A DNA stretch of 64,000 nt from Pannonibacter phragmitetus DSM 14782 (GTDB lineage: Bacteria > Pseudomonadota > Alphaproteobacteria > Rhizobiales > Stappiaceae). Both the position numbers and the translations under genes were made by a program. Location of the stretch: contig NZ_KB908217.1 in assembly GCF_000382365.1 (NCBI RefSeq), positions 186,001 through 250,000 on the forward strand, in the 5' to 3' direction. The notes beneath the pieces were generated by a model. It saw only the letters and a program-made list of their open reading frames with translations. It was not told the origin of the DNA and ran no database searches. How positions within the stretch are numbered: position 1 is the stretch's first letter; the number at the start of each line of letters is the position of its first letter. Of this stretch, positions 14,050 through 22,003 are shown in pieces.

Positions 14050-14258
14050 CAGGTCCCTAACGGGCCCCGGCACAAGGCCGGGGCGGCGCGGTAATGGTAC
14101 CTTGGGGGCAGTTGCCCAACTCAGGCAACTGCCGATCATTGATCTCAATCCGTGCTTCCCCACCGCGCCGTCCCGGCCTCCGTGCCGGGACCTGTGAGGA
14201 AAGCACTGCCTTCCGCCTCTCTCAGGCCGTCGCCCCGGCCTTTGAGCCGGGACGACGG
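14050..14258. repeat. Cluster of three REP-like palindromes
   Basis: Palindromic units at about 14050-14092, 14161-14195 and 14226-14258, built on GTCCCGGC-N5-8-GCCGGGAC. The first two face each other, as in paired REP (BIME) elements. The whole gap 13883-14276 holds only these and the dispersed repeat; no gene is seen in it. Confidence 0.75.
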
Positions 14259-17023: not shown

Positions 17024-17236
17024 ATGCAGCCCTTCGGGCTGCTGCCAACAGGAGGGGCGAGGCCGGTGCGGACGGGCGCCGGCCTCATCTTCCTGCCCGA
17101 GTTCTTGCCCGAGCTCCTGCCTGATACACGCCTGACGCCCGTCAGATACTCAATCCTGCGTGCGCAGGGGCTCGCCAGACGTCACCAGAGCGTTATTTGC
17201 ATCTTCAGAATTTCAGGCGTTTGCTGTGGGCGCTGA
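17024..17236 (+). CDS. Possible small protein (weakly supported)
   Basis: 70-codon frame following a near-perfect Shine-Dalgarno sequence (AAAGGAGGT, five bases before ATG), between the EF-G-like gene and msrP. The peptide has no recognisable motif or clear membrane segment. The first codons also form a 7-bp hairpin (GCAGCCC-TTC-GGGCTGC, 17026-17042), so the site may instead be an mRNA-end structure with a chance ribosome site. Confidence 0.3.
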   Translation: MQPFGLLPTGGARPVRTGAGLIFLPEFLPELLPDTRLTPVRYSILRAQGLARRHQSVICIFRISGVCCGR

Positions 17237-17249
17237 TCAGGAGGACAAG

Positions 17250-18221
17250 ATGCATATCATCCGCAAGCCGGGCTGGGCCCTGCCCGAGCATATGGCAACA
17301 CCGGAGCACCTGTTCTGGAACCGCCGCGCGGTTCTGGGGGGCATGGCGGGCGCGGGCGCGCTGGCACTGGGGGCGGGGCTGCCATCCGGCGCAAGGGCGC
17401 AGGATGGTGCCGCAGACCCGAGCGCCAGCCTCTATCCGGTGAAACGCAACGAGGCCTATACGCTGGACCGTGCGCTCAGCCAGGAAAAGCACGTCACCAG
17501 CTTCAACAATTTCTACGAATTCGGCACCAGCAAGAGCATCTCCCGTGCGGCGCAGGCCCTGCCCATCCGCCCGTGGACGGTGACAATCGACGGCATGGTG
17601 GACAAGCCGCAGCAGATCGGCATCGATGATCTTCTGAAGGCCATGCCGCTGGAAGAGCGGCTCTACCGCTTCCGCTGCGTCGAGGCCTGGTCCATGGCCG
17701 TGCCCTGGTCCGGTTTCGCCCTGTCGGAACTGGTGAAGCTGGCCAGCCCCCAGGCAGGCGCCAAATACCTGCGCTTCGAGACCTTCCAGGACGCGAGCAT
17801 TGCGCCGGGCCAGAACATGGTCTGGTATCCGTGGCCCTATGTGGAGGGCGTGACCATGGCCGAGGCCACCAACGAGCTGGCCTTCATGGTGACCGGCGTT
17901 TATGGCAAGCCGCTGCCCAAGCAGAATGGCGCGCCGCTGCGTCTCGCCCTGCCGTGGAAATACGGCTTCAAGTCGATCAAGAGCATCGTCCGCATCACCT
18001 TCACCGATGAGCGGCCAAAGACCATGTGGGAAGCGCTGGGGCCGACCGAATACGGCTTCTGGGCCAATGTGAACCCTGAAGTCGCTCATCCGCGCTGGAG
18101 CCAGGCGCAGGAAGACGTGCTGGGCACTGGCGAAACCGTTCCGACGCTGCTCTACAACGGCTATGCCGAGCAGGTGGCTGGCCTTTATAAAGGCATGGAA
18201 GGCGAGAAGCTTTTCATGTGA
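17250..18221 (+). CDS. msrP: Protein-methionine-sulfoxide reductase catalytic subunit MsrP
   Basis: 323-residue periplasmic molybdoenzyme (YedY/MsrP family) that reduces methionine sulfoxide in oxidised envelope proteins. It has a Tat signal (NRRAVLGGMAGAGALALGAG), the family start KRNEAYTLDRALSQEKHVTSFNNFYEFG, and the molybdopterin ligand Cys in YRFRCVEAWSMAVPWSGF. YGFKSIKSIVRI follows in the C-terminal part. CAGGAGGA precedes ATG 17250. The usual membrane haem partner gene msrQ does not follow; it would have to be elsewhere or replaced by another electron donor. Confidence 0.93.
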   Translation: MHIIRKPGWALPEHMATPEHLFWNRRAVLGGMAGAGALALGAGLPSGARAQDGAADPSASLYPVKRNEAYTLDRALSQEKHVTSFNNFYEFGTSKSISRAAQALPIRPWTVTIDGMVDKPQQIGIDDLLKAMPLEERLYRFRCVEAWSMAVPWSGFALSELVKLASPQAGAKYLRFETFQDASIAPGQNMVWYPWPYVEGVTMAEATNELAFMVTGVYGKPLPKQNGAPLRLALPWKYGFKSIKSIVRITFTDERPKTMWEALGPTEYGFWANVNPEVAHPRWSQAQEDVLGTGETVPTLLYNGYAEQVAGLYKGMEGEKLFM

Positions 18222-18365
18222 GGCTGTCCGGCTTTAGCGATGCAATGCGGAAGGCTCCGGGGTATCTCCGGGGCCTTCTGCATTCTGGCTGAGGCCTTTC
18301 CTGCGCTGCACCGGCCGTAGCGAAGTGGAGAGCCGGGTGACGGAGATTGTGGCAGAACGTCCCTC

Positions 18366-18497
18366 ACAGGTCCCGGCGCAAGGCCGGGACGGCGCGGTGG
18401 AGATGCTGTGCGGTGGGCACACAGTTGCCCGTAGCAGGTCCCTGTGCGAACGGAGATCTGTTTTCTACGCCGTCCCGGCCTCCGTGCCGGGACCTGT
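18366..18497. repeat. Paired REP-like palindromes (BIME-like)
   Basis: Unit 18366-18399 (ACAGGTCCCGGC ... GCCGGGACGGCG) and unit 18468-18497 (CGCCGTCCCGGC ... GCCGGGACCTGT) are in opposite orientation about 70 bp apart. They match the family seen at 14.1 kb, 26.6 kb and 41.2 kb. Confidence 0.75.
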
Positions 18498-18558
18498 CAT
18501 GGGCGCACCGCTTGCCGGAGGTTGCTCTGAAGCCACCCTCTTTTCCAAGCCGCAAGGC

Positions 18559-18586
18559 AAAAAAAAGCCGGGTCAAAAGACCCGGC
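18559..18586 (-). terminator. Strong rho-independent terminator (minus strand)
   Basis: Stem GCCGGGTC/GACCCGGC with a four-base loop, followed on the minus strand by eight T residues (the A-run 18559-18566). It ends the predicted sRNA rather than an annotated protein gene. Confidence 0.9.
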
Positions 18587-18688
18587 AGTTATTTTTGATT
18601 TTCCACAGCGTGGAAAATCACCTTCCAGAGGGGAACAGCTGGCTGAATTGGCGTCGCTGGGAGGAGAGTGCGACGCCGCAGAACCAAC
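18560..18688 (-). ncRNA. Predicted AbcR-like (alpha-r15 type) trans-acting sRNA
   Basis: The minus strand shows three stem-loops in about 130 nt. Stem 1 is GGCGTCGC/GCGACGCC (18650-18677), perfect, with a 12-nt loop reading ACTCTCCTCCCA, an exposed anti-Shine-Dalgarno sequence. Stem 2 is a perfect 10-bp hairpin (18597-18619). Stem 3 is the terminator 18559-18586. A -10-like TATAAG (18701-18696) sets the start near 18688, and the -35 is weak, as expected for an activated promoter. AbcR sRNAs of Rhizobiales have this architecture and repress ABC-transporter mRNAs with Hfq. The next gene upstream of the promoter encodes the LsrB/VtlR-type LysR regulator, whose relatives activate abcR genes. The start and family are inferred. 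Confidence 0.68.
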
Positions 18689-18731
18689 AGTGATGCTTAT
18701 ATGCAGTGCACAAGCTGATTAAACAAGTGGC

Positions 18732-18743
18732 ACCTGCGCAGGT
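18732..18743. promoter_or_regulatory. Candidate LysR-type activator site of the sRNA
   Basis: ACCTGCGCAGGT is a perfect 12-bp palindrome centred about 50 bp upstream of the inferred sRNA start. This is a usual place for a LysR-type activator. Assignment to LsrB/VtlR is inference. Confidence 0.4.
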
Positions 18744-18763
18744 CAGCCATGCGTTTAAGGAAT

Positions 18764-19071: not shown

Positions 19072-19971
19072 TCAGTAGGACCAGCGTTCGGCCTTGGCCA
19101 GCAGGAAATCACGGAAAGCGGTGATGCGCGCGGTATTCTTCAGCTCGGACGGATAGACGAAATAGGTGTCGAAGCTGGGGATCTGGTCTTCCAGATGCGT
19201 AAGGACCGGCACCACGCCCGTTTCATTCTCGACGATGTAGTCCGGCAGGATGGCGACGCCGATGCCCTGATCCACCGCGCGCTTGATCGCCACCACATTG
19301 TTGACGCGCAGCACGATGCGGCGCGGTTCGCCCAGCGGACGGTGCGCCGTTTCCAGCCAGTTCATGTCGCGCAGATAGGCCGGCGCATGCTCGCCAAAGG
19401 TGACGATGCGGTGATTGTCCAGATCCTCGATCGTCTTCGGCGTGCCATAGCGCTTCAGATAATGCGGTGAAGCGTAGATGTGAAAGTGCACGGTGAAGAG
19501 CTTGCGCTGGATCAGGTCCGGCTGTGTCGGCTGGCGCAGGCGGATGGCCACATCCGCTTCGCGCATGCCAAGGTCCAGCTCCTCGTCATCGAAGATCAGC
19601 CGCAGTTCCATATCCGGATAAAGGTCGATGAACTCGTTGATGCGCGCCGTCAGCCAGGTGGAGCCAAGGCCCACCGTGGTGGTGATGCGCAGCACGCCGG
19701 AGGGCTTTTCGCGGCTGTCGGTGAGGCGCGTCTGCACGGCCTCCAGCTTCATCAGCACCTCGCGGGCCGTGCGGTAGAGGAGTTCGCCCTGCTCGGTGAG
19801 CAGAAGGCCGCGCGCGTGGCGGTGGAACAGCGGGATTCCGAGATCCTGCTCCAGCGCGCTGACCTGACGGCTGACGGCGGACTGGCTCATGTTCAGGCTG
19901 TCGCCCGCATGCGTGAAGCTGCCTGCCTGTGCGGCGGCATGGAAAATGCGCAGCTTGTCCCAGTCCATCAT
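19072..19971 (-). CDS. lsrB: LysR-family regulator, LsrB/VtlR type
   Basis: 299-residue LysR-type regulator. The N-terminal helix-turn-helix DWDKLRIFHAAAQAGSFTHAGDSLNMSQSAVSRQVSALEQDLG is followed by a co-inducer domain. LFHRHARGLLLTEQGELLYRTA, RLRQPTQPDLIQRKLFTVHFHIYASPHYLKRYG and SFDTYFVYPSELKNTARI resemble, as I remember them, LsrB of Sinorhizobium and VtlR of Brucella/Agrobacterium. Those proteins control envelope, redox and virulence functions and activate abcR sRNA genes. Position next to trxB, as in rhizobia, supports this. The predicted AbcR-like sRNA lies downstream of the gene on the same strand. Confidence 0.85.
   Translation of the reverse strand: MMDWDKLRIFHAAAQAGSFTHAGDSLNMSQSAVSRQVSALEQDLGIPLFHRHARGLLLTEQGELLYRTAREVLMKLEAVQTRLTDSREKPSGVLRITTTVGLGSTWLTARINEFIDLYPDMELRLIFDDEELDLGMREADVAIRLRQPTQPDLIQRKLFTVHFHIYASPHYLKRYGTPKTIEDLDNHRIVTFGEHAPAYLRDMNWLETAHRPLGEPRRIVLRVNNVVAIKRAVDQGIGVAILPDYIVENETGVVPVLTHLEDQIPSFDTYFVYPSELKNTARITAFRDFLLAKAERWSY

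Positions 19972-20030: not shown

Positions 20031-22003
<1,973 letters not shown>

Follow-up and report, generated by a model that had tools for sequence, protein, structure and literature searches.

The window (the whole 64,000-nucleotide stretch of Pannonibacter phragmitetus DSM 14782 that was analysed) carries on its minus strand, in this order, trxB, lsrB and a candidate small RNA (sRNA) gene. As the first-pass annotation of this DNA had stated, the regulator gene is the next one upstream on the same strand: lsrB (19072-19971) ends 382 bp from the predicted RNA start. The order trxB-vtlR is described for Agrobacterium (PMC7486931). The product of lsrB is 98% identical to P. indicus LsrB. 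The features of the locus are as follows.

17160-18221, plus strand: msrP, convergent with the sRNA gene
18559-18690, minus strand: AbcR-type (ar15) sRNA gene, predicted transcript of about 132 nt (fold, ar15 match, covariation, model R1)
18559-18586, minus strand: intrinsic terminator, 8-bp stem and eight T
18596-18620, minus strand: hairpin 2, 11-bp stem whose letters vary while pairing is kept
18628-18635, minus strand: anti-Shine-Dalgarno motif aSD2, UUCCCCUC, in the linker between hairpins 1 and 2, same letters as S. meliloti aSD2
18650-18677, minus strand: hairpin 1, 8-bp stem and 12-nt loop (sequence, fold, double-sided changes)
18659-18666, minus strand: anti-Shine-Dalgarno motif aSD1, CUCCUCCC, in the loop of hairpin 1, same letters as S. 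meliloti aSD1
18696-18727, minus strand: predicted core promoter, CTTGTT (18727-18722), 17 nt, GCATAT(AAG) (18704-18696), kept in most of the relatives displayed
18738-18752 (-62 to -48), minus strand: predicted LsrB/VtlR operator GCATGGCTGACCTGC, dyad GCA-N9-TGC (match to the published box)
19072-19971, minus strand: lsrB/vtlR, LysR-type regulator without cysteine (Pfam HTH_1 and LysR_substrate)
20031-21014, minus strand: trxB, thioredoxin reductase (TIGR01292 above cut-off), 5′ of lsrB as in Agrobacterium

The stretch very probably encodes an AbcR sRNA, a kind of RNA already known in related soil bacteria and compared here with five published accounts (PMC7486931, PMC8844928, PMC11975290, PMC5461406, PMC3927594). 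In one limited collection, outside which such reports may exist, no literature was found on AbcR with Pannonibacter or on AbcR1 with Labrenzia. The literature on Stappiaceae more widely did not mention AbcR1 among the matches listed, and the one match for AbcR with Stappia concerns, as listed, osmolytes of Pelagibaca. Elsewhere in the window, GC-rich nested inverted repeats occupy 18358-18505 (arms 18358-18377/18486-18505 and 18381-18394/18468-18481), and a similar palindrome lies at 14064-14084; these repeats are perhaps a REP-like element.

Structure and conserved motifs of the RNA

Rechecking of the letters confirmed the three minus-strand hairpins of the first-pass annotation. Folding of the 136-nt stretch gives a minimum free energy of -57.3 kcal/mol; the value for 200 dinucleotide shuffles is -34.6 +/- 3.2, and no shuffle folds as stably (z = -7.0). 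Stem 1 is formed by GGCGTCGC and GCGACGCC (18677-18670 and 18657-18650) and encloses the loop ACTCTCCTCCCA (18669-18658), in agreement with the 8-bp stem and 12-nt loop described earlier. The last hairpin, GCCGGGTC-TTTT-GACCCGGC (18586-18567), is followed by eight T (18566-18559) and is the terminator already proposed. Because its hairpin (18567-18586) is symmetrical, it may act for convergent msrP as well, although the T run on that side is poorer.

S. meliloti AbcR1 and AbcR2 silence mRNAs through two such motifs: the first loop presents aSD1, CUCCUCCC, and the stretch separating hairpins 1 and 2 holds aSD2, UUCCCCUC (PMC8844928). Both 8-mers recur in the window RNA letter for letter and in the same placement. 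The first-pass annotation had recognized the anti-Shine-Dalgarno loop and had overlooked the second motif. The Brucella AbcR motifs, M1 CUCCCA and M2 GUUCCC (PMC5461406), are also both present.

A DNA search with 18800-18540 matched 65 of 101 genomes. By a hand count of the listing, 59 of these belong to the same family as the window, and many of the longest matches span query positions from about 45-49 to 242-249, that is, from the operator to the terminator. An alignment of 38 sequences, with very few from outside the Pannonibacter, Roseibium and Stappia groups, yields a consensus structure of 26 pairs, with standard pairs in 97.9% of cells. Covariance support in related genomes, on which the earlier proposal had been made to depend, is present: double-sided changes occur in 14 of the 26 pairs, and the covariation score is 0.313; shuffled alignments give 0.149, with none of 500 reaching the observed score, and slid ones give 0.068 or less. 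All six pairs of consensus helix 2 (hairpin 1) and three of the four counted pairs of consensus helix 4 (hairpin 2) carry such changes. Further pair types, by contrast, are about as numerous as in shuffles (27 versus 25.3; 78 of 500 shuffles as high). Structure and conservation together are far above chance, and the secondary structure is conserved, as expected of an AbcR (ar15) RNA.

The UCCUCCC part of aSD1 is invariant in all 38 aligned sequences, and aSD2 is invariant except for one C absent in four tandem Stappia copies. Since the loop core does not vary, the linker hardly does so and stem 1 is compensated, conservation falls on both pairing motifs and on the shape presenting them. The tandem copies occur in two Stappia loci, L051 and L053 (taken as the same records as L115 and L114), and all four copies in L114 and L115 lack that C.

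Assignment to the AbcR family

The Rfam ar15 model (RF02345) matches the window RNA over its full length and on the right strand with 29.5 bits (E 6e-4, search of 801 bases). This check, suggested by the first-pass annotation, thus succeeded as to the match and fell short as to the gathering score of 40 bits, and the RNA is therefore classed as a homologue of AbcR that lies beyond the curated threshold. In a search of Stappiaceae, 51 of 61 genomes match ar15 at E <=1; because this loose level also admits 3 of 14 unrelated control genomes, the count alone is weak. Under stricter filters, 0 of the 61 pass the ar15 cut-off. A class-wide search with strict filters and even sampling recovered only the window genome among 385; it was taken as uninformative, yet it speaks against easy detection.

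Model R1 was built from the 38 aligned sequences and gives the window RNA, itself within the training set, 141 bits. A match 3′ of lsrB on the same strand is found in 63 of 80 loci at E <=5.6e-8, some of these loci, or the same strains, being in the training set; the other 17 have none within the stretch examined. Sixty order-wide lsrB loci, hand-picked from the listed places and in part the same records as among the 80, give 27 matches at E <=0.01 (19 at E <=1e-5) and 33 loci without a match in the stretch examined. Across whole genomes of the order, 154 of 297 match at E <=0.01, the weaker ones perhaps by chance. At the R1 place, ar15 exceeds its gathering score in 8 of 17 loci tested (L079, L088, L098, L102, L106, L108, L109, L110); the 9 that stay below belong mostly to Stappiaceae and near relatives. 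A further 4 of 12 other loci are above it (L192-L195), including two of Rhizobiaceae type (L194, L195) in which R1 finds tandem RNAs after lsrB with ar15 scores of 108-127 bits. Homology of the window RNA to accepted ar15 members is established through these R1 loci that pass the gathering score.

Two candidates were discarded. A plus-strand R1 match at 18458-18597 (26.7 bits, E 1.3e-4) overlaps the symmetrical terminator and has similar echoes in most of the 80 loci. A possible second AbcR copy with a weak ar15 match (G000:C18:60426-60530) is better explained as MmgR/suhB; the likely MmgR/suhB sRNA of this genome (L112 917-993, G000 C18) scores 34.4 bits, below the gathering score of 41.

An anti-Shine-Dalgarno loop is not peculiar to AbcR, and cuckoo RNA is the name of one sRNA type that has it. 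The RNA could accordingly belong to another such family, either ar14/NfeR1 or the cuckoo type: its first loop contains CUCCUCCC, NfeR1 is reported to act via such motifs too, and ar14 gives a weak match of 17.9 bits (E 0.63; gathering score 58.8). The higher ar15 score, the AbcR features that accompany the loop (the linker motif UUCCCCUC, lsrB synteny and an LsrB box) and the above-threshold ar15 genes that relatives have at the same place make this very improbable.

Slightly less probable still is that the RNA is merely the 3′ UTR of lsrB or a read-through product without an sRNA gene of its own, as its position on the lsrB strand 382 bp after the stop codon would allow. Sequence conservation sets in at the GCAT box and takes in promoter and operator. 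The RNA lies at most 700 nt from the lsrB stop in 58 of the 63 loci, but 1.2-2.6 kb away in the other five (L035, L054, L060, L065, L067), and some genomes have it at a greater distance still or on a separate contig (G077, G568). The AbcR identity proposed in the first-pass annotation is borne out by the full-model ar15 match, the above-threshold homologues, both motifs and lsrB synteny, along with the LsrB box at -62 and the uptake-gene enrichment described below.

The predicted operator and a cysteine-free LsrB

The core promoter of S. meliloti PabcR1 is reported as CTTGAC-N17-CTATAT. The first-pass annotation had proposed an activator-type promoter from a -10-like TATAAG and a 12-bp palindrome, and both are present, at 18701-18696 and, as ACCTGCGCAGGT, at 18743-18732. 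Among 66 promoters (the window and 65 copies in 63 loci), TATAAG occurs in 42 and CATAT at the -10 place in 63; a generic sigma-70 scan of the window called no promoter. The palindrome does not hold as a conserved operator, being exact in 2 of the 66 only (the window and P. indicus L031).

The LsrB/VtlR box is described as GCAT-N3-TG-N3-T at -61 to -49 of S. meliloti PabcR1. Its counterpart in the window, GCATGGCTGACCT (18752-18740), begins at -62 of the predicted start, so that the RNA gene stands, like other AbcR genes, beside lsrB/vtlR with an LsrB box. The strict box is found in 29 of the 66 promoters, including the window, and AG replaces TG in 36. The dyad GCA-N9-TGC, which overlaps the 12-bp palindrome, is found in all 66, as compared with 7% of random 110-nt stretches, and lies between -64 and -56 in 65, the exception being L107 at -48. 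Because no promoter of this set lacks it, the conserved operator looks, at the level of sequence, like this dyad, the second half of which starts at position 13, the T of the published box. Of 23 further order-sample copies (23 of 30 rows; L228, which duplicates L075, and the six lowest-scoring rows were left out), 19 have the dyad, not always at the same place, and 14 the strict box.

The box pattern GCATNNCNGNNNTGC is not rare, with 3 occurrences in the window versus 1.6 expected. Genome-wide, 70 other LsrB boxes were matched against 10 for the reversed control, and several matches in the ten box stretches inspected lie inside reading frames. Symmetrical GCAT...ATGC dyads at L313 946-960 and L321 989-1003, outside frames of at least 140 aa, are possible further LsrB sites. 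In L194 and L195, the AG form of the dyad also precedes the second tandem copy (by order AbcR2); AbcR2 is reported as not driven by LsrB/VtlR, and the dyad may therefore not suffice.

The best PDB match of the window LsrB is 9hh1 (E 1e-129), which has cysteines at the positions of those of Agrobacterium LsrB; from these positions, we infer that it is the A. tumefaciens protein. Agrobacterium LsrB is described as having four cysteines that form two proximal pairs and that all undergo reversible modification in vitro (PMC11975290). Two of them, C144 and C273, are common to the LsrB proteins of Agrobacterium, S. meliloti and Brucella, and a C273S mutation increases sensitivity to peroxide and leaves sensitivity to paraquat and ampicillin unchanged (same source). 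The window LsrB carries V141, V233, I241 and V272 at columns C144, C236, C244 and C273. It lacks the C144 and C273 pair (Agrobacterium numbering) of a thiol redox switch and contains no cysteine at all, which means that in this genome the regulator itself cannot work as a thiol switch. An indirect redox input to the module is possible.

Cysteines were tabulated for 136 LsrB proteins: the 80 loci, 55 of the 60 order loci and the window, omitting L174, L183, L196, L198 and L202, where the start motif was not found. C144 and C273 occur together in 8, C144 alone in 4 and C273 alone in 1; at least one of the four columns holds a cysteine in 19, and 83 have none anywhere. In a FastTree phylogeny, the C144 rows do not group once L178 is included; without it, a split with support 0.999 separates the other 11 from the rest. 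None of 51 Stappiaceae rows, assigned by hand and including 3 without that label, has a cysteine at any of the four columns, and the lsrB-operator-AbcR module is thus conserved there without the proposed switch. Six loci with no R1 match in the stretch examined (L084-L087, L089, L092) have another cysteine pair, at about residues 219 and 266, and LsrB of L090 has only the second of these.

That LsrB does not activate the RNA in this lineage, and that the dyad serves another regulator, would accord with the AG form in 36 of 66 promoters and with the absence of the redox-responsive cysteines of Agrobacterium. We regard this as unlikely, given that the box of the window fits the published consensus strictly and lies where that box has been reported, and that the linkage of lsrB and RNA is kept across many families. 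LsrB activation is retained as the preferred reading, and an even chance is given to the following history. The LsrB-AbcR module would predate the thiol switch, the Agrobacterium-type pair being absent from Pannonibacter and most sampled Hyphomicrobiales, so that AbcR would answer to something else, be it a small molecule bound by the LysR domain or an indirect signal, or would have no input at all. Direct redox control would have come later, in one clade of Rhizobiaceae type, and the true operator would be the dyad GCA-N9-TGC, the published box being one half plus part of the other.

Predicted targets and relation to known AbcR systems

The complement of the loop letters, TGGGAGGA, lies 3-12 nt before ATG at 43 places in the genome, and the reversed pattern at 3. 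The 43 places correspond to 37 frames of at least 60 aa, or 36 after removal of one partial copy; L286, which starts inside a DctP gene, was kept out of the uptake count, and L273 could be assigned to no family. By Pfam, 22 of the 36 frames are uptake-system genes. These include 15 substrate-binding proteins (by family, five DctP, one NMT1_3, one TctC and eight of ABC type) and seven other parts (DctM, two DctQ, three ABC ATPases and one PTS permease); three AMP-binding ligases are among the remaining frames. Control frames with other Shine-Dalgarno sequences, drawn from 30 of 102 places of one set and 13 of 13 of another, number 30, of which 20 have a Pfam family; three are transport genes (EamA, HlyD, BPD_transp_1) and none encodes a substrate-binding protein. 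The difference between the 36 and 30 frames gives a Fisher P of 2e-5 for the uptake count and 2e-5 for the substrate-binding count; with Pfam-family frames only (35 versus 20), P is 6e-4 and 3e-4, respectively. A stronger Shine-Dalgarno control, TAAGGAGG, had 5 sites only and was set aside.

The complement of the aSD2 letters, AGGGGAAC, has 22 places versus 9 for the reversed pattern; all 14 of its frames were scanned and include three substrate-binding proteins and one DctQ. One substrate-binding protein gene (L293) carries CCAGAGGGGAACAGC directly before its ATG, a 15-nt perfect pairing with the aSD2 region. The RNA is thus complementary to start regions of uptake-system mRNAs, which fits repression of these genes, and TRAP and TTT transporters are likely targets beside those of ABC type. 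Genes of substrate-binding proteins may, for other reasons, favour GGGAGGA ribosome sites.

With high confidence, the locus is read as an apparently single-copy AbcR (ar15) sRNA that would be activated by LsrB and silence uptake mRNAs through two anti-Shine-Dalgarno motifs. LsrB, made from the neighbouring gene, would bind GCA-N9-TGC at about -62 and activate transcription of the RNA. This trans-acting RNA, probably with Hfq, would use its loop CUCCUCCC and linker UUCCCCUC as two independent single-stranded motifs to pair with the ribosome-binding sites of mRNAs for substrate-binding proteins, other ABC, TRAP and TTT uptake parts and some acyl-CoA ligases. Pairing would block translation and spare the cost of unneeded transporters.

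Work on AbcR RNAs has centred on plant symbionts and pathogens, and in these LsrB is regarded as a redox sensor. The occurrence of the whole module in Stappiaceae, with both pairing motifs unchanged but a cysteine-free LsrB, separates its conserved job, restraining nutrient uptake, from the redox input. Such an LsrB offers an easy test of what the regulator senses and helps to ask how far AbcR control reaches. The family is also a gap in Rfam, the ar15 cut-off being passed, under the stricter filters, by none of its 61 genomes.

Among known systems, the window RNA resembles S. meliloti AbcR1/AbcR2 (RF02345) in the placement of aSD1 and aSD2, in its adjacency to lsrB, in a box at -61/-62 and in transport and metabolic targets. 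It differs from them in that one copy, rather than a tandem pair, was found in the window genome, and in its likely TRAP and TTT targets beside ABC. Relative to the Rfam ar15 model, its score is below gathering and its hairpin 2 is longer (26 versus 13 letters in the collapsed part). With A. tumefaciens AbcR1/VtlR it shares the order trxB-vtlR-abcR and the GCAT-N3-TG-N3-T box, whereas its LsrB has V, V, I and V in place of C144, C236, C244 and C273. Like the Brucella abortus AbcR RNAs, it carries M1 CUCCCA and M2 GUUCCC; it is unlike them in arrangement, since Brucella abcR1 and abcR2 are described as lying on different chromosomes with only abcR2 under VtlR (PMC5461406). What goes beyond the known AbcR systems is the apparently wider operator, the probable targeting of TRAP and TTT transporters and the cysteine-free LsrB.
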